Shown: positions 3,124 to 53,222 of the stretch, one piece after another
Layout: every line of letters begins with the position of its first letter
Position numbering within the stretch: the stretch's first letter is position 1
Assembly: GCF_900143565.1 (NCBI RefSeq)
Contig: NZ_FREX01000008.1
Location: 66,540 to 130,539, forward strand
Direction of reading: 5' to 3'
DNA length: 64,000 bases
From: Pseudovibrio sp. Alg231-02
Lineage (GTDB): Bacteria > Pseudomonadota > Alphaproteobacteria > Rhizobiales > Stappiaceae
Notes under the pieces: model-generated
Database searches by the model: none
What the model saw: only the letters and a program-made list of their open reading frames with translations
Told to the model about the DNA's origin: nothing
Made by a program: the position numbers and the translations under genes

Positions 3124-3200
3124 GCGGGTGTAGCTCAGTTGGTTAGAGTGCCGGCCTGTCACGCCGGAGGTCGCGGGTTCGAGTCCCGTCACTCGCGCCA
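3124..3200 (+). tRNA. tRNA-Asp (GTC), copy 1 of 4
   Basis: A 77-base cloverleaf: acceptor GCGGGTG pairs with CACTCGC, discriminator G, and the CCA end is encoded. The anticodon loop CTGTCAC carries GTC, reading the Asp codons GAC and GAU. The T arm contains GGTTCGAGTCC. It is followed directly by a small hairpin (CTTTTCCT...AGGAGAAG) in the spacer. Confidence 0.97.
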
Positions 3201-3260
3201 CTTTTCCTTAGGAGAAGCGGCGCAGGAAAGCAAAGTGTTGTTGAAGGTAGTTTGGATTGA

Positions 3261-3337
3261 GCGGGTGTAGCTCAGTTGGTTAGAGTGCCGGCCTGTCACG
3301 CCGGAGGTCGCGGGTTCGAGTCCCGTCACTCGCGCCA
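3261..3337 (+). tRNA. tRNA-Asp (GTC), copy 2 of 4
   Basis: This copy is identical base for base to the copy at 3124-3200, including the encoded CCA. It lies 60 bp after copy 1. The following spacer again opens with a hairpin (CTTCCC...GGGAAG). Confidence 0.97.
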
Positions 3338-3382
3338 CTTCCCTTGGGAAGAGGTGTTCAGTCCAAGCAAACTGTTATAGCT

Positions 3383-3459
3383 GCGGGTGTAGCTCAGTTG
3401 GTTAGAGTGCCGGCCTGTCACGCCGGAGGTCGCGGGTTCGAGTCCCGTCACTCGCGCCA
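3383..3459 (+). tRNA. tRNA-Asp (GTC), copy 3 of 4
   Basis: This copy is identical to the others and lies 45 bp after copy 2. The following spacer opens with the hairpin CTTCTC-TTT-GAGAAG. Confidence 0.97.
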
Positions 3460-3506
3460 CTTCTCTTTGAGAAGTAGCTGCTATAACAAACACATAAATG
3501 AGAGTT

Positions 3507-3583
3507 GCGGGTGTAGCTCAGTTGGTTAGAGTGCCGGCCTGTCACGCCGGAGGTCGCGGGTTCGAGTCCCGTCACTCGCGCCA
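3507..3583 (+). tRNA. tRNA-Asp (GTC), copy 4 of 4
   Basis: This is the last identical copy, 47 bp after copy 3 and followed by a strong terminator. The four genes probably form one precursor that is cut between copies. Confidence 0.97.
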
Positions 3584-23519: not shown

Positions 23520-23650
23520 GCGTTTAGAGGGGTGTTGTTAGAGAGACACTTGTCCCTGCTGTATTCAGACTCTGGTGAGTATGCTGATATGAGTAAACTG
23601 AATGCGGTATTCATAGAATATCATGGAGTGAAACGGCAGAAATTGGCGAA

Positions 23651-23676
23651 AAAAAAGCAAGGCCGAAGCCTTGCTG
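23651..23676 (-). terminator. Minus-strand intrinsic terminator with UUCG loop
   Basis: Read on the minus strand, GCAAGGC-TTCG-GCCTTGC is followed by eight T bases. No annotated minus-strand gene ends here, so it either serves an unlisted minus-strand RNA from the 23680-23880 region or shields the neighbouring small-RNA region from read-through. Confidence 0.6.
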
Positions 23677-23705
23677 TTAGAACGAGTTCCGCGTCTAAAT
23701 GTTCT

Positions 23706-23814
23706 CTTTGCACTTGCGTAGAGTGCCGGCTGCAACCAAACGGGCGCCCGAGAACCTTCCTCCCAAGACTAAAGATCGCGATACCTTGCAACACCGCTTA
23801 AGGGTGTTGTTTTT
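23706..23814 (+). ncRNA. Candidate small RNA with CCUUCCUCCC motif
   Basis: A promoter-like pair TTGCTG (23671-23676) - 17 bases - TCTAAA (23694-23699) would start transcription near 23706. The RNA would fold a hairpin GCACT...AGTGC (23710-23726) and a palindrome CGGGCGCCCG (23741-23750), then expose CCTTCCTCCC (23755-23764), which is complementary to ribosome binding sites. It ends in a terminator CAACACC-GCTTAAG-GGTGTTG-TTTTT (23789-23814). This layout, hairpin then single-stranded CCUCCC then terminator, resembles the Hfq-dependent alphaproteobacterial small RNAs of the MmgR/alpha-r8 and related kinds, though I cannot confirm the family. The opposite strand is also possible, since it has its own terminator at 23651-23676. 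Confidence 0.45.
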
Positions 23815-23882
23815 GTTGTTGAACAGACACTAACGTAATCACATTAGTTTGTCATCATTTTGTATCAATTCGCCGCAATTTT

Positions 23883-46193: not shown

Positions 46194-47390
46194 ATGAGCG
46201 ATTTGGAAGCTGTCAAACCCTTCAAGGTTTTCTTTGTTGTTGGTGAAGAGTCTGGTGATCAGCTCGGCGCGGAAGTCATAAAAGCTCTGCGGGCTTCGAT
46301 TGGTGATCGTCTACAAGCCTGTGGTCTGGGCGGTGAGCGCATGGCGACTCAAGGTGTGCAGTCGATCTTTCCGCTGCATGATATTGCTGTGATGGGCATT
46401 ACGGCGGTGCTGGAACGTTTGCCGACAATTATTCGCCGTGTACATCAAACCGTTGATGCGGTTATTGCCGAGCAACCTGATTTGCTGCTGATCATCGACT
46501 CTCCGGATTTCACTCACAATGTGGCAAAGCGCGTGCGCAAAAAAGCGCCTCATATCCGAGTGGTGGACTATGTGAGCCCGTCTGTGTGGGCGTGGCGTCC
46601 GGGACGTGCGAAGAAGATGGCGGCATATGTGGATCAGCTGCTTGCTCTGTTGCCGTTTGAGCCTGAGGCTCACAAGCGCCTTGGTGGACCGCCCTGTGAT
46701 TATGTGGGGCATCCGTTGATTGAGCGGCTTGCTGATTTGCGGCCGGCTCCGGGGGAGCGCGCAGAACTCGGTGCAGGCAGAAAGCAGTTGGTGGTGCTTC
46801 CGGGCTCCCGAACCAGCGAGGTTTCGCGGTTGCTGGAGCCGTTTGGCGAAGCAGTCGCTTTGATTTGTGCGCAAGATCCGAATGTGGATGTGATCATTCC
46901 AGCAGTGCCTCATCAGGAGCAGCGCATTCGCGATGGTGTGGCTTCCTGGAAGGTGCAGCCGCGTATTGTGACGGGTGAAGCGGAAAAGTTTGCGGCTTTG
47001 CGACAGGCAAATGCAGCGCTTGCGGCCAGCGGTACTGTGTCTTTGGAGCTGGCGATTGCTGGTGTGCCTATGGTTATAGCTTACAAGCTGGACTGGTTCT
47101 TCCGCCGCCTGAAGCAGATCAACCGGTTCGTCAAGATTGTTGCGGTGGACACCATTGTGCTGCCCAACCTTGTGCTTGGGGATCACAGCATCAAGGAATA
47201 TATTGAGGACGAAGCGGACCCTGAAGTGCTCAGTCAGGCCGTACTTGCGCTGCTGTCTGATAGTCCAGAGCGGCGGGCGCAGCTGGACGCGTTCTCTCGT
47301 ATTGATGAAAAGATGCGTTTGCCTGAAGGCGAAAGTCAGGCAGGCAAGGCTGCCCGGATTATTCTGGAAACGGCTGGAGTTTCAGCTTAG
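46194..47390 (+). CDS. lpxB: Lipid A disaccharide synthase
   Basis: LpxB joins lipid X and UDP-diacylglucosamine. The 398-residue GT-B glycosyltransferase shows G-E-E-S-G-D-Q-L-G near the start, Y-V-S-P-S-V-W-A-W-R-P-G-R, D-Y-V-G-H-P and L-P-G-S-R. It is the last gene of the long rpsB-lpxB run and is followed by a strong terminator. Confidence 0.95.
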   Translation: MSDLEAVKPFKVFFVVGEESGDQLGAEVIKALRASIGDRLQACGLGGERMATQGVQSIFPLHDIAVMGITAVLERLPTIIRRVHQTVDAVIAEQPDLLLIIDSPDFTHNVAKRVRKKAPHIRVVDYVSPSVWAWRPGRAKKMAAYVDQLLALLPFEPEAHKRLGGPPCDYVGHPLIERLADLRPAPGERAELGAGRKQLVVLPGSRTSEVSRLLEPFGEAVALICAQDPNVDVIIPAVPHQEQRIRDGVASWKVQPRIVTGEAEKFAALRQANAALAASGTVSLELAIAGVPMVIAYKLDWFFRRLKQINRFVKIVAVDTIVLPNLVLGDHSIKEYIEDEADPEVLSQAVLALLSDSPERRAQLDAFSRIDEKMRLPEGESQAGKAARIILETAGVSA

Positions 47391-47486: not shown

Positions 47487-47516
47487 AAAGGCCTGAAGAG
47501 ATCTTCAGGCCTTTTT
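47487..47516 (+). terminator. Intrinsic terminator after lpxB
   Basis: AAAGGCCTGAAG-AGAT-CTTCAGGCCTTT followed by two more T bases is a perfect 12-bp stem. It lies between the convergent lpxB and the last gene of the small exported-protein cluster and can serve both. Confidence 0.85.
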
Positions 47517-47524
47517 GTATGATG

Positions 47525-47980
47525 TTAGTTGTCCAATACCTTGATGTGCAGTGTTCCGCGGCAGGTGCCGTCGGAGAAAACGCCGGACGCTTCCTGAGTG
47601 CCGACCAGACCTGTTGCAGCGAGTTCCACGTCAACAGGTGTTTTGGTTTCATCTCCCGGGAAAATGATCTCGTACTCGTTCTCGATTGAGAAGATGCCCC
47701 CGCTGACGCTGCCACCAATGGCGATGACCAGAATGTCGTGGCCTTTGTCCGTGCCGCGTTTAAGCGTGTCATTGGTGGAGTCCGGGTGATCCTTGGTTGT
47801 GAAACCTTCACCGTAGCGCTTTTCGCAGGTTCCATCATCTGGACTGCCGTCTGTCATGGAGAGATTGGAGAAGGTGATTGTTTTATCGCCGGGCCCCAGC
47901 CTTTGTGCGACGGCCAGAGCAGCGGTGCTGGTGATGGCTAGTGCCGTGAAGGCGATTGTGGTCAGGAGCAGTGTTTTCAT
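47525..47980 (-). CDS. Small exported protein, two-Cys family, copy 1
   Basis: A 151-residue precursor with a signal peptide (MKTLLLTTIAFTALA, likely cut after A-A-L-A near residue 23). The mature protein carries the features shared by the six-member cluster: F-S-N-L-S-M-x-D-G-S-P-D-D-G-T-C, then K-R-Y-G-x-G-F-T, K-G-H, E-N-E-Y-E-I-I-F-P-x-D and G-V-F-S-D-G-T-C-R-G near the end. The two Cys probably form a disulfide in the periplasm. Closest to copies 2 and 3. It starts 46 bp after copy 2 and probably shares its mRNA. I do not recognise the family. Confidence 0.8.
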   Translation of the reverse strand: MKTLLLTTIAFTALAITSTAALAVAQRLGPGDKTITFSNLSMTDGSPDDGTCEKRYGEGFTTKDHPDSTNDTLKRGTDKGHDILVIAIGGSVSGGIFSIENEYEIIFPGDETKTPVDVELAATGLVGTQEASGVFSDGTCRGTLHIKVLDN

Positions 47981-48026
47981 TGTTCTATCCGTCCCGTATC
48001 GTTGGGTGGTATGACGCGGTGTTGTA

Positions 48027-48494
48027 TCATTTAAGTTGTGTTTTCTTCAGCAGTGTCATCACTGTTGAGCCGCGACACGTCCCGTCAGAGAAGACCCCAG
48101 TCGCTTGCGTTTCGCCTGTGATCCCTGTTGCCATCAGCTGAAAGTTGACAGGTTTGCTTTGTATGTCCTGCGGGAAGGTGATGATGTATTCATTCTCCAC
48201 TGAGTACAGGCCACTTTCCAAGCTGCCGCCTATATGGATCATTTTGATCTCATGCCCCTCATAGGTGATGAAATTGCGGTGCTCTGCGAGGGAGCCTGGA
48301 TGATTCTTAACCGTGAAGCCATTGGCATATCTTTTCGCGCAGATCCCGTTGTCCGGACTTCCGTCCACCAGTTACAGGTCGGTGAATGCGGAAAACTTGT
48401 CGCCGCGCCCCAATCGCAGGCTCATCGCGTCTGCGCTGATGCTTGTGAGCGTCAGGGCTGTCAGGGATATGACTGTGCAAAGGGCGGCTTTCAT
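48027..48494 (-). pseudogene. Small exported protein, two-Cys family, copy 2, interrupted by TAA
   Basis: The frame begins with ATG at 48494, 12 bases after copy 3, encodes a signal peptide (MKAALCTVISLTALTL) and runs in register with copies 1 and 3 through F-T-D-L, then meets TAA at codon 41 (48372-48374) exactly where relatives have Ser or Thr. After the stop the frame continues unbroken to 48027 with D-G-S-P-D-N-G-I-C, E-N-E-Y and G-V-F-S-D-G-T-C-R-G. One base change (TCA to TAA) would explain it. A GTG at codon 43 could restart translation, but the product would lack the signal peptide. Otherwise a sequencing error is possible. No other decay is visible, so the loss is recent. Confidence 0.8.
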
Positions 48495-48506
48495 CGGGCT
48501 CGGGTC

Positions 48507-48962
48507 CTACTGCTGGGCCGATTGAATGGTGACCTTGCCGCGGCACGTGCCATCCGAGAACACGCCTGAGGCTGTTCCGCTGCCAATCAGGCCGGTTGCG
48601 AACATCTTCACATCAATTGTTTCTTTGTGCTCGTCATTGGGGAAGATGATCTCGTATTCATTTTCGATGGACAGGATGCCATCCCCAATGGTGCCTCCGG
48701 TGGAGGAGATGATGATGTCGTGGCCTTCTGTCGTCGTCTTTTGAGCGTTTGGTGAAGACGTGTCGGGATGGTCTGCGGTTTTGTAACCTGTTCCGTAGCG
48801 TTTTGCGCAGGTGCCGTCGTCAGGCGTGCCGTCTGCCAATGTCAGCTCGGAGAATGTGACGGATTCATTGTCACTGCCCAGACTGTGATCGTCTGCCAGG
48901 GCCGTGCTGCTGACATAGGCAATTGCGCCAAGGCTTGCTGCTGCACAGAGATATTTCTTCAT
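48507..48962 (-). CDS. Small exported protein, two-Cys family, copy 3
   Basis: A 151-residue precursor starting MKKYLCAAASLGAIA with likely cleavage after T-A-L-A near residue 23; four extra residues are possible from an upstream ATG at 48974. The mature part has F-S-E-L-T-L-x-D-G-T-P-D-D-G-T-C-A-K-R-Y-G, then E-G-H, I-E-N-E-Y-E-I-I-F-P-N-D and G-V-F-S-D-G-T-C-R-G. It is the first gene of the 3-2-1 set. Its upstream region (48963-49110) is duplicated upstream of copy 4. Confidence 0.8.
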   Translation of the reverse strand: MKKYLCAAASLGAIAYVSSTALADDHSLGSDNESVTFSELTLADGTPDDGTCAKRYGTGYKTADHPDTSSPNAQKTTTEGHDIIISSTGGTIGDGILSIENEYEIIFPNDEHKETIDVKMFATGLIGSGTASGVFSDGTCRGKVTIQSAQQ

Positions 48963-49110
48963 GGGTGCCACCACTTGTTATTTTTCAGGCTTAAAACCGC
49001 TCAAAGAGTAGTCCTGCTGCGTTAACGTAGATGTTTTTGCTGAGCTTCGATTTTCTTTAGGATGAAGAATGAGTTTTGGGGATGCTGCTGGATTTAGCCA
49101 GTTTCTAATG
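48931..49110. repeat. Duplicated promoter/start segment, copy A
   Basis: This segment covers the first codons of copy 3 and about 150 bp upstream of it. Matching stretches in the second copy at 50319-50495 include AGTCCTGCTGCGTTAA and GATTTTCTTTAGGATGAAG, plus the first codons MKK-x-x-CAA. On the minus strand it should contain the promoter of copies 3-2-1. Confidence 0.65.
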
Positions 49111-49281
49111 CACTACGCATAAACATCCGTGAAAACTGAAGATTTACGCAGTGCAGGGGCTGGAAAATCCAGGGCTTATGATAGGCTATGCTCTTCATTG
49201 CATTGATGCATCGTGGGTTTTCGCCTGTCGTGTTTGTTTTGAGAATGAGTGTGCAGGTCAGCTACAGATTTTGAGGTTTTT

Positions 49282-49767
49282 ATGAAAGTCAGAGACGCGG
49301 TTCTGGTCGATGCTGAAGAAATCAGCGTTTTTTTGCAGGAACTTGCTGCGTTAGGAAAGCGCAGTTTGCCGAGTGATGAGACCTATGTGATCTCTCAGTA
49401 CATTGCTCATGCAGATAATATCCGCTGTTCTGTGGTTGAAGATGTGGACGGGACCCTGCTTGGGCTGCAGATCCTGAAACGGGCATCAGAGGGCAACACT
49501 TATGGTGTGACGCCGGGTTGGGGCATGATCGGCACCCATGTGCGCCCGAGTGCAGGGCGCCGCGGTGTCGGGCGGGCCTTGTTTGCTGCAACGCTTGATG
49601 CTGCCAGACAAGCCGGGCTTGAGAAGATTGATGCCACGATTGGTGCCTCCAACCCGGAGGGGCTGGGTTATTATGAGGCGGTTGGCTTTCGCACCTATAA
49701 GACCAACGAGAGTTCTGTCAGTAAATGTTTTGAGCTGACTGAGGCAACTGCGCCTGTCCAGAAATGA
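49282..49767 (+). CDS. GNAT family N-acetyltransferase
   Basis: A 161-residue protein with the GNAT fold. The acetyl-CoA loop is R-R-G-V-G-R-A-L (about residues 100-107), preceded by I-G-T-H-V-R-P and followed by the typical A-S-N-P-E-G-L-G-Y-Y-E-A-V-G-F. The substrate is unknown. Start at 49282 follows GAGG; a GTG at 49249 would add eleven residues. It is the only plus-strand gene inside the exported-protein cluster, and its stop directly abuts the stop of copy 4 (TGATCA). Confidence 0.85.
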   Translation: MKVRDAVLVDAEEISVFLQELAALGKRSLPSDETYVISQYIAHADNIRCSVVEDVDGTLLGLQILKRASEGNTYGVTPGWGMIGTHVRPSAGRRGVGRALFAATLDAARQAGLEKIDATIGASNPEGLGYYEAVGFRTYKTNESSVSKCFELTEATAPVQK

Positions 49768-50253
49768 TCATTTGACGCCGACGACAGAGAACCTCCCGGA
49801 GCAGATGCCATCTGAGAAGACGCCGGTGAAGATTTTGGAGTTCACGAAGCCGGTTATGAACTGGGTGTTCTCGACTTCTTCGCCCGGATCATTGGGGAAG
49901 GTGATGAGGACTTGCGAGTGTTCGGCATAAATGCCGTCACCGCGCAGTTCACTGCGGGCATAAAGGGAGAATTTGTGCCCTTTGTCGCTGACAAACTGTC
50001 CGCGCCGTCCGTTTGGATCGGGGTAGACAGTGTATCCGTTGCCATAGCGCTCTTTACAGAACTCAACACCAACTGCATCTGTCAGGACTGTCAGGTTCTG
50101 GATGGCGATCTGCCGTGATACAGACAGGCGTTTCAGGTCTGTGAAGGGATTGCCCCGGTTGTCGCGGTGGGTGATCTGAGCGTTAGCTTGCCCCAGCATC
50201 CCAATGGTGAGGATGAGAGCTACACCGGACTGTTTCAGTTTTGTAAGGCGCAT
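49768..50253 (-). CDS. Small exported protein, two-Cys family, copy 4
   Basis: A 161-residue precursor from the ATG at 50253 (MRLTKLKQSGVALILTIGML, cut likely after A-N-A near residue 25), with GGGAG upstream. Mature motifs: N-L-T-V-L-T-D-A-V-G, F-C-K-E-R-Y-G-N-G-Y-T, D-K-G-H, L-I-T-F-P-N-D and G-V-F-S-D-G-I-C-S-G. It forms a subgroup with copy 5, sharing the signal-peptide core K-L-K-Q-S-G-V. The frame is open further upstream to 50334, but that DNA is a remnant of a copy-3-like start in another frame, so the long form is unlikely. Confidence 0.8.
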   Translation of the reverse strand: MRLTKLKQSGVALILTIGMLGQANAQITHRDNRGNPFTDLKRLSVSRQIAIQNLTVLTDAVGVEFCKERYGNGYTVYPDPNGRRGQFVSDKGHKFSLYARSELRGDGIYAEHSQVLITFPNDPGEEVENTQFITGFVNSKIFTGVFSDGICSGRFSVVGVK

Positions 50254-50266
50254 GTCTACTCCCATT

Positions 50267-50350
50267 TCAAACCTGCTGTGCCTGACCTCTCGTCCCGGAT
50301 CTGTCGAGGACAGGACTGAGGCTTGTTGCTGCACAGAAAATCTTCTTCAT
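50267..50350 (-). pseudogene. Truncated signal-peptide remnant of a copy-3-like gene
   Basis: ATG at 50350 opens a 27-codon frame beginning MKKIFCAATSL, nearly the same as the start of copy 3 (MKKYLCAAASL), and after about 11 codons it loses similarity and stops at TGA (50267-50269). It lies within the duplicated segment and 14 bases upstream of copy 4. It may be translated as a short leader or be inert. Confidence 0.65.
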
Positions 50351-50495
50351 GGGGAGCTTCCACTCGTTGCTGTTCAGGCCTCACGACCCGCAAAGAATAG
50401 TCCTGCTGCGTTAATGTAAATGCTCTGGGTTCAATTTGATTTTCTTTAGGATGAAGAATGTGTTTCGTGTGACTGTCCGGATTTAGTCAATTTCT
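50319..50495. repeat. Duplicated promoter/start segment, copy B
   Basis: Second copy of the segment at 48931-49110, now in front of copy 4. The best-kept blocks are in the upstream non-coding part, suggesting that these hold a promoter or a regulator site kept by selection. Confidence 0.65.
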
Positions 50496-50515
50496 CGAAG
50501 CAGCGTTTTGCGGGA

Positions 50516-51001
50516 TCATTTGGCGGCTACGACGGAGAAGTGCCCGGTACAGACGCCATCAGAGAAGACGCCGCTGAACATCTTGGAGTTGACGAAGCCG
50601 GTGATGAAGGCAGTCACCTCGACCTCTACGTCTGGGGCATTGTGGAAGGTGATCAGCAGTTTTGAGTGTTCTGCATAAATGCCATCCTGACGCCACTCAC
50701 TGCGATCGTAGAGGGAGACTTTGTCGTTCATCTTGCTGATAAACTGCCCTTGTTTCCCGTTTCGGTCAGGAAAAATGGTGCCGCCTTTGCCATAACGTCC
50801 CTCGCAAAACTCAATTCCCACGGCATCAGTCAGGACTGTCAGGTTGTCAATTAAGACTTGCCGTGTTGGAAGCGCGCGCTTCATGTCGGAAAATGGATTG
50901 GCCTTATTGACGCGATTGACGATCTGACTGCTGGCTGGCCCCAGCATTCCAAAGGTGATGAGGAGGACAACACCGGACTGCTTCAGCTTTTTAACTCGCA
51001 T
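50516..51001 (-). CDS. Small exported protein, two-Cys family, copy 5
   Basis: A 161-residue precursor from the ATG at 51001 (MRVKKLKQSGVVLLITFGML, cut likely after A-S-S near residue 25), with GAGAG upstream. Motifs: N-L-T-V-L-T-D-A-V-G-I, F-C-E-G-R-Y-G-K-G, L-I-T-F, F-I-T-G-F-V-N-S-K-M-F and G-V-F-S-D-G-V-C-T-G. It is the sister of copy 4. In this copy K-G-H is replaced by N-D-K, so that feature is not invariant. Confidence 0.8.
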   Translation of the reverse strand: MRVKKLKQSGVVLLITFGMLGPASSQIVNRVNKANPFSDMKRALPTRQVLIDNLTVLTDAVGIEFCEGRYGKGGTIFPDRNGKQGQFISKMNDKVSLYDRSEWRQDGIYAEHSKLLITFHNAPDVEVEVTAFITGFVNSKMFSGVFSDGVCTGHFSVVAAK

Positions 51002-51196
51002 GCTTTCTCTCGTTTTAAACCTGTTGCGTCCCATCTTTTATGCCTGAACGGTCAGGATTGGTGCGGCTGCGAAATGCTGTTGGACGATGAGCCTGATGTG
51101 CCCTTTGCTCCGAACCATTTCGGTTTGGGGAACCTCTCAGAATATCTGTCTCTGTCTCTGTCTGTGTCAGTTCAACGGAACGGTGGTGAGCGGGCT

Positions 51197-51649
51197 TTAC
51201 TGCAGTTTCAGCGGGCCAACAAAGACCTTGCCGGTGCATGTGCCGTCTGTGAATACGCCGCTGTAATGGTCTCCGCCAATCAGGCCGGTTACGAACTGAG
51301 TGACCTCGATCTCTTCCTCTTTATTGCCGGGAAACGTCATCATGAATCTGTCGTGCTCTGCAAAAATGCCGTGTCCCAGGATCTCGTTTGTATCGACCAG
51401 CGTTACCGTGTGCCCCTTATCGCTGATGTAGGTGCGCTTGGGGGCTTCCTTGGAGGGGGAGACTGTGTACCCGTCACCATAACGCTCAACGCAGATGGAA
51501 TTGTCTGATGTGCCGTCCTGCATGCTCAGGTTTGAAAAGACAACGTCCCTGGAGGCTTGTGTCGTGTCGGTGTTTGCTAAGGAATAGCTTGCCAGACCAG
51601 CAGAGAGGAGCGTGAAAGCTGCAAAAACAGGGAGGGGGGCAAGACGCAT
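51197..51649 (-). CDS. Small exported protein, two-Cys family, copy 6
   Basis: A 150-residue precursor from the ATG at 51649 (MRLAPLPVFAAFTLLSAGLA, cut likely near S-L-A, residue 25), with AAAGGATG upstream. Its first mature third reads like copies 1-3 (F-S-N-L-S-M-Q-D-G-T-S-D-N-S-I-C-V-E-R-Y-G), while the middle reads like copies 4-5 (I-S-D-K-G-H, G-I-F-A-E-H). It ends G-V-F-T-D-G-T-C-T-G. This mixed character suggests it is nearest to the ancestral form. The frame extends to 51697, but the upstream start has no ribosome site. Confidence 0.8.
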   Translation of the reverse strand: MRLAPLPVFAAFTLLSAGLASYSLANTDTTQASRDVVFSNLSMQDGTSDNSICVERYGDGYTVSPSKEAPKRTYISDKGHTVTLVDTNEILGHGIFAEHDRFMMTFPGNKEEEIEVTQFVTGLIGGDHYSGVFTDGTCTGKVFVGPLKLQ

Positions 51650-51786: not shown

Positions 51787-51815
51787 AAAAAAGGAGGCAA
51801 AATGCCTCCTTTTTC
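51787..51815. terminator. Bidirectional terminator downstream of gltA
   Basis: AAAAAGGAGGCA-AAA-TGCCTCCTTTTT is a perfect 12-bp stem with A and T runs on both sides. On the minus strand it ends gltA transcription. Confidence 0.85.
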
Positions 51816-51889: not shown

Positions 51890-53182
51890 TTAGCGGCGCT
51901 GGTCGATTGGCTGATAATCACGCTCGGAATAGCCGGTGTACAGCTGGCGTGGACGACCGATACGCTGGGAAGGATCTTCAATCATTTCCTTCCACTGTGC
52001 GATCCAACCTACTGTACGAGCCAGTGCGAAGAGCACGGTGAACATGGTGGTTGGGAAGCCCAGAGCACGCAGGGTGATGCCGGAGTAGAAGTCAATGTTT
52101 GGATAAAGCTTCTTCTCAACGAAGTAAGGATCGGTGAGAGCAACTTTTTCCAGTTCCATTGCCACTTCAAGAAGCGGATCGTCCTGGTGGCCCAGCTCTG
52201 CAAGCACTTCATGACAGGTTTTCTGCATGATGCGCGCGCGTGGGTCGTAGTTTTTGTAGACGCGGTGACCGAAGCCCATGAGGCGGAACGGATCATTCTT
52301 GTCTTTTGCACGTGCTACATACTCAGGAATACGGTCAACAGAACCGATTTCGGAGAGCATGTTCAGAGCTGCCTCATTCGCACCGCCATGAGATGGACCC
52401 CACAGACATGCAATACCAGCTGCAATACATGCAAATGGGTTTGCGCCTGAAGAACCAGCAAGACGTACGGTGGATGTGGAAGCATTCTGCTCGTGGTCAG
52501 CGTGCAGGATGAAGATACGGTCCATGGCACGTGCCAGAACCGGATTTACTTTATATTCCTCACATGGAACTGCGAAGCACATGTGCAGGAAGTTGGATGC
52601 GTAGTCCAGATCGTTTCTTGGGTAAACGAATGGCTGGCCAACGTGGTATTTGTAGGCCATTGCAGCAATGGTCGGCATCTTTGCGATCATGCGCAGGGAT
52701 GCAACCATGCGCAGGTGTGGATCAGAGATGTCGGTGCTGTCATGATAGAAGGAAGAGAGAGCTCCAACGGTACCGGTCATGACTGCCATTGGGTGGGCGT
52801 CACGACGATAACCCTTGAAGAAAGAGCTCATCTGATCATGGATCATGGTGTGGTAGGTTACACGATGAACAAAATCGTCCTTCTCTGCGCGTGTTGGCAG
52901 TTCGCCGTACAGCAGCAGATAGCAGCTTTCCAAAAAGTCGCCGTGTTCGGCGAGCTGTTCAATCGGGTAACCGCGGTAAAGCAGAACGCCTGCGTCACCG
53001 TCGATGTAAGTGATCTTGGATTCGCATGAGGCAGTTGATGTGAAACCAGGGTCCAGTGTGAAGTGATCAGTTTGCTTATAAAGCGAACCGATGTCCAGAA
53101 CATCAGGGCCCATGGAGCCAGAGTGGACGTTAAAGTCCCAGCTGTTGTCTCCAATAGTCAGTTTCGCTGTTTTGTCGCTCAT
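51890..53182 (-). CDS. gltA: Citrate synthase
   Basis: Type II citrate synthase condenses oxaloacetate and acetyl-CoA in the TCA cycle. The 430-residue protein has the Gram-negative N-terminal domain ([20 protein letters not shown]), the catalytic His in [10 protein letters not shown] and G-F-G-H-R-V-Y-K, and the catalytic Asp region D-F-Y-S-G. The ATG at 53182 follows GGGGG; a TTG three codons earlier is possible. Confidence 0.97.
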
Positions 53183-53222
53183 ATCAGGCAACCCCCATTT
53201 TGTATCTCCTCATGCGACTTGC

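Follow-up and report, generated by a model that had tools for sequence, protein, structure and literature searches.

The junction between lpxB and gltA in Pseudovibrio sp. Alg231-02 (genome of 5.96 Mb, label G000) holds a cluster of small genes for related, apparently exported proteins, which we analysed within a 64,000-nt stretch of contig C24, hereafter the window. Six related coding stretches lie on the minus strand at 47525-51649, flanked on the left by lpxB (46194-47390, plus strand) and on the right by gltA (51890-53191, minus strand), both named from a reading of their translations. In order of transcription these are A (51197-51649; 150 amino acids), which adjoins gltA; B2 (50516-51001; 161 amino acids); a relict of a further C-type copy, consisting of a leader and first codons, upstream of B1 (50319-50495, also minus strand); B1 itself (49768-50265; 165 amino acids); C (48507-48962; 151 amino acids); D (48027-48494); and, as the final gene of the run, E (47525-47980; 151 amino acids). 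The initial annotation had described six related genes on one strand. The six stretches are indeed related and on one strand, but D has an in-frame TAA at 48372-48374 and is a pseudogene, dead in this genome. The run is also not strictly tandem, as a GNAT acetyltransferase gene on the plus strand (49249-49767; PF00583, 36.7 bits against a cut-off of 20.7) splits the third and fourth members, converging with and abutting B1. The range of 150-161 residues first given fits A, B2, C and E but neither B1 nor the broken D, and all of these lengths depend on the starts chosen.

Kinship between the members is above chance (BLASTP E values of 2e-18 for C against B1 and 2e-26 for A against B2), and the mature parts of the five open window members are 28-66% identical. 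The two motifs noticed at first reading, C-x-x-R-Y towards the start and G-V-F-S/T-D-G-x-C-x-G towards the end, are present as described, except that at the residue following the tyrosine, given earlier as G or A, all five open members have G and only the broken D has A. Both motifs (C-x-x-R-Y and S/T-D-G-x-C-x-G) are strictly present in 55 of the 59 open frames taken forward from all genomes, one of which, in G004, has an altered end. Among 40 aligned sequences, positions C28, R31, Y32, G109, D113 and G118 (numbering of mature C) are invariant and C116 is found in 39; by far the strongest conservation is at residues 106-118, which include the G-V-F-S-D-G-x-C-x-G motif. Exactly two cysteines occur in the mature part of every one of the 59 frames, when counted from 12 residues before C-x-x-R-Y onward. 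This pattern suggests that the two cysteines pair in a disulfide, as had been proposed. The usual second cysteine is lost in two members; it is gone from an open gene of P. ascidiaceicola (L042 6875-7339), D-like by eye, which has a cysteine five residues earlier and still totals two. Export-type N-termini are predicted by simple rules in all five open window members, in line with the signal peptides of the initial annotation. Across the 59 frames, a hydrophobic stretch with an A-x-A-like site is found in all, a basic residue near the start in 58 and a lipobox-like match in one, these features being judged on starts picked partly for hydrophobicity.

According to the initial annotation, no described family is known to have this signature, and none was matched in the libraries searched. 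In Pfam, NCBIfam, PHROGs and PADLOC the five open members gave only matches below cut-off or at chance level (the Pfam and NCBIfam scans also took in the 3' part of D, and 0 of the 5 proteins matched a PADLOC defence model), while a Pfam scan of 39 members likewise gave nothing above cut-off, with a best E value of 0.02. A search of PDB sequences returned cortactin as its sole match (E >= 0.55), which we dismissed as chance. Passages of PMC5959193 and PMC11796379 retrieved by word search make no mention of the family. A mobile origin was also considered and rejected: member C had no tblastn match in plasmids or phages, and 11 pattern matches in viral contigs included no relative.

Structure models of two divergent members, mature C (mb37644230bae) and mature B1 (m517d2382e3aa), have the same predicted fold, with a strand order that fits an 8-stranded up-and-down beta-barrel. 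Segments with a predicted local distance difference test (pLDDT) score below 50 are short: C has 3 such residues and B1 has 17. By a raw count made with no null, 31 of 127 positions distinguish groups A, B, C and E of the tree described below, each being at least 80% fixed inside a group while differing from one group to another; strand 5, counted in the same way, has 8 such positions out of 11. The predicted strand order would also fit lipocalins and calycins; however, there is no match to a Pfam calycin model or other sequence of this kind, and Foldseek gave no match to the models at E <= 0.001. The beta-barrel of the cyclic-dinucleotide receptor Cap15 (PDB 7n34 and 7n35) shares 9-10% identity with the family. 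Cap15 is an intracellular, membrane-anchored anti-phage receptor, whereas the family proteins look exported and have no PADLOC match. The bacterial avidins (agroavidin, hoefavidin, wilavidin and bradavidin) were compared as well, the Pfam avidin model being unmatched by the window proteins and by the 39 members.

A model of the family matched 62 open stretches on 19 DNA stretches of 11 genomes; besides the 59 frames used here, these comprised the two halves of D and one fragment in G008. The carriers are 11 of the 16 genomes of the genus. At 8 of 8 loci the named relatives found belong to Pseudovibrio, namely Ad37, P. denitrificans, P. japonicus, P. ascidiaceicola, P. axinellae and one uncultured member. 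A search at family level matched 12 of 87 genomes, namely the 11 carriers and one genome of another genus, G1137 (E 1e-30). No credible match outside the genus was found in samples of genomes from the order (397), the class (385) and the phylum (398), which overlap and in which at most about ten first-look candidates were scored per genome, so that some members may have been missed. Marginal matches over 47-53 positions of the N-terminal half (best E 0.010-0.017) came from three phylum genomes, and we do not count these as members. On inspection, G826, of the same phylum, has two 83-residue frames (L085 and L087) scoring 15-17 bits around C-x-x-R-Y-G with the remainder of the family sequence absent; these may be due to chance or be remotely related to the N-terminal half.

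Family genes lie between lpxB and gltA in all 11 carriers (ten fetched loci and the window), and the GNAT gene is at this junction in 9 of them. In G1137 the homologue also sits between lpxB (58% identical to that of the window) and gltA (88%), as located by tblastn. Of the five genus genomes lacking the family, three (G007, G011 and G012) have the match ends of lpxB and gltA only 159-178 bases apart, and G013 has another insert (L077 1348-5451) with some open reading frames that are glycosyltransferase-like by eye; in the last, G001, gltA lay outside the fetched stretch. Among other genera of the family rank, lpxB was found in 11 genomes, 8 of which were fetched, and in three the match ends are 106, 173 and 441 bases apart. 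The cluster had been viewed as an accessory insertion, and the empty junction in three congeners agrees with this; the insertion is, however, neither recent nor strain-specific, because all 11 carriers and a genome of another genus share the junction. As occupied, empty and otherwise filled junctions all occur, sequence comparison indicates a variable site that was filled early in the clade.

Growth of the cluster by duplication, as first suggested, is borne out by the tree, the relict copy and direct repeats. The tree contains groups A, B, C and S, plus a mixed group that takes in D, E and F, although its bootstrap is not fully settled (21 of 56 inner branches are well supported) and some branches are long. 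Where they occur, groups A, C and S are single-copy in each genome, group A having one row in each of 9 of the 11 carriers; B and the mixed group have multiplied. B2 is a duplicate of B1, their mature parts being 66% identical, and direct repeats join the two genes (72% over 300 bases). The relict matches the leader of gene C at 142 of 182 positions (E 2e-27), and its C leader (D2, D4) recurs as repeats of 76% over 114 bases and 86% over 35. The proteins are real and conserved, and their ratios of nonsynonymous to synonymous substitution (dN/dS) show no signature of an arms race. Medians by group, from NG86 estimates for pairs with 0 < dS < 1.5 and with the first 25 residues excluded, were 0.08 for A (14 of 28 pairs used), 0.11 for B (7 of 36), 0.25 for B2 (6 of 6), 0.11 for C (26 of 45), 0.18 for D (3 of 6), 0.08 for E (16 of 28), 0.19 for F (1 of 3) and 0.11 for S (10 of 28).

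Several features surround the cluster. A 12-bp, terminator-like hairpin (-19.9 kcal/mol, z -6.7) lies at 47487-47514, in the gap between E and lpxB, whose ends converge, and a hairpin followed by U-rich sequence lies on the minus strand at 51787-51815, downstream of gltA and before the cluster (-18.2 kcal/mol, z -4.95). Both were picked by eye; neither was listed by a scan for consensus promoters and terminators, in which sites were rarer than in shuffles. The arms of the second hairpin recur in 9 aligned upstream stretches of group A. Upstream alignments gave groups A, C and S each a conserved leader of its own and pointed to no nameable regulator. The window genome also has an open paralogue, S, on a separate contig (C16), beside ATP-binding cassette (ABC) transporter genes that are of peptide type by eye. 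Such genes adjoin S in all 8 S loci, found in 8 of the 11 carrier genomes, and the remaining neighbours differ. Elsewhere in the window there are four tandem tRNA-Asp (gtc) genes with identical Rfam scores (3124-3583, plus strand) and a match to the alphaproteobacterial small RNA ar9 (23649-23819, minus strand; 55.9 bits, gathering score 45).

A different set of neighbours was seen in four other genomes. In G010, a Pseudovibrio, and in G1137, the single family gene, located at the lpxB-gltA junction, precedes two genes on its own strand: first a short gene and then a gene for a class I/II aminotransferase, a pyridoxal phosphate (PLP) enzyme (PF00155, 43.8 and 58.5 bits; cut-off 19.7). The short protein carries the motif W-H-T-H-I-L-F-T-x-K-Y-x-x-D-C; against the GRDP-like family PF07173 one of the two proteins scored 17.9 bits, under the cut-off of 22.7, and the other gave no match. 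The same kind of gene follows paralogue S in G006 and G014, so that in four genomes of two genera it stands directly after a family member (L059 7743-8165, L088 7967-8350, L054 5595-5960 and L061 4991-5356). The five short proteins, the fifth being a second G010 copy (L109, by eye) away from that genome's only family-search match, have 34 invariant positions in common. No match to the short gene was found in the window genome or in 8 of the 11 carrier genomes, and the aminotransferase is present in 1 of the 16 genus genomes. Among 39 loci around GRDP-like matches elsewhere (from 36 places, most loci being about 3 kb long), there was no family member by hidden Markov model (HMM) or motif. These arrangements hint at an older functional context with the short gene and the aminotransferase, since left by most Pseudovibrio.

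Taken together, our results define a conserved family that has no description in the libraries searched, is old within its clade and has a common architecture. The proteins most likely serve as stable extracytoplasmic binders, a role suggested by their architecture and duplication. We give roughly even chances to a specific form of this reading, in which they are disulfide-locked, 8-stranded up-and-down beta-barrels of about 125 mature residues that bind a small ligand or a foreign protein and differ in specificity between paralogues. Each copy would fold outside the cytoplasm, where the cysteine of the short helix after strand 1 and that opening strand 8 would tie the barrel. The conserved helix and the hairpin of strands 7 and 8 may then form the scaffold end, or cap, while the barrel or its variable parts would bind the target, as set by the positions that differ between groups. 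The paralogues, made by duplication at the lpxB-gltA junction and held by purifying selection, would be versions of differing specificity.

The leading specific alternative is that the proteins are exported inhibitors of proteases or other enzymes, similar to Inh/AprI, which block a foreign or own protease and whose paralogues cover different proteases of invertebrate hosts. We consider this unlikely. The Pfam model for inhibitors of the Inh/AprI and Omp19 type is unmatched by the window proteins and the 39 members. The inhibitor reading is weakened because, according to the abstract of PMC9486555, the inhibitory activity of U-Omp19 resides in a disordered N-terminal region and not in the barrel; in the family this region is short, as the few low-confidence residues of both models indicate. 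A slightly less probable view is that these proteins have a structural or chaperone-like part in the periplasm or at the surface, bind no specific ligand and are kept in several copies for dosage or for condition-specific expression. The strong purifying selection, the outstanding conservation of residues 106-118 and the distinct leaders of groups A, C and S, which suggest separate expression, would all be compatible with such a role, but paralogues within one genome are 34-72% different, which is beyond what dosage alone would lead one to expect.

Two further explanations appear improbable, and to about the same degree. One is that the family protein is a substrate, modified in the cytoplasm by the neighbouring GRDP-like protein and PLP enzyme and then exported. 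The recurrence of the short gene on the same strand after a family gene, with the aminotransferase gene following in G010 and G1137, favours this, but the GRDP-like assignment itself falls below cut-off or fails. Moreover, as the partner genes are missing from most carriers and the second G010 copy lies elsewhere, most family members would work without these partners. The other is that the genes encode immunity or effector proteins of interbacterial competition. The cluster, with its divergent adjacent paralogues, its broken D and its relict, resembles arrays of such genes; against this, reading the translations at 45.3-54.8 kb by eye revealed no toxin or secretion-system gene, no PADLOC model was matched and dN/dS is low. 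More speculatively, and with a low probability in our estimation, an ancestral three-gene locus of exported barrel, short WHTHILFT GRDP-like protein and PLP enzyme may have made or carried an amino-acid-derived product, and the Pseudovibrio clade may then have freed the barrel from its partners and expanded it into as many as nine secreted, specialised binders, all at a single junction and serving a life on marine animals.

Interest in Pseudovibrio has centred on its associations with sponges, corals and ascidians. For this marine genus, our analysis provides a defined, conserved and testable family with no match in the curated libraries searched, at a junction that can be compared in its empty, single-copy and many-copy states among close relatives. 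The link with a GRDP-like gene and a PLP enzyme may, in addition, offer an entry to the bacterial GRDP-like proteins; the papers found on GRDP are, to judge from titles, mostly concerned with plants.
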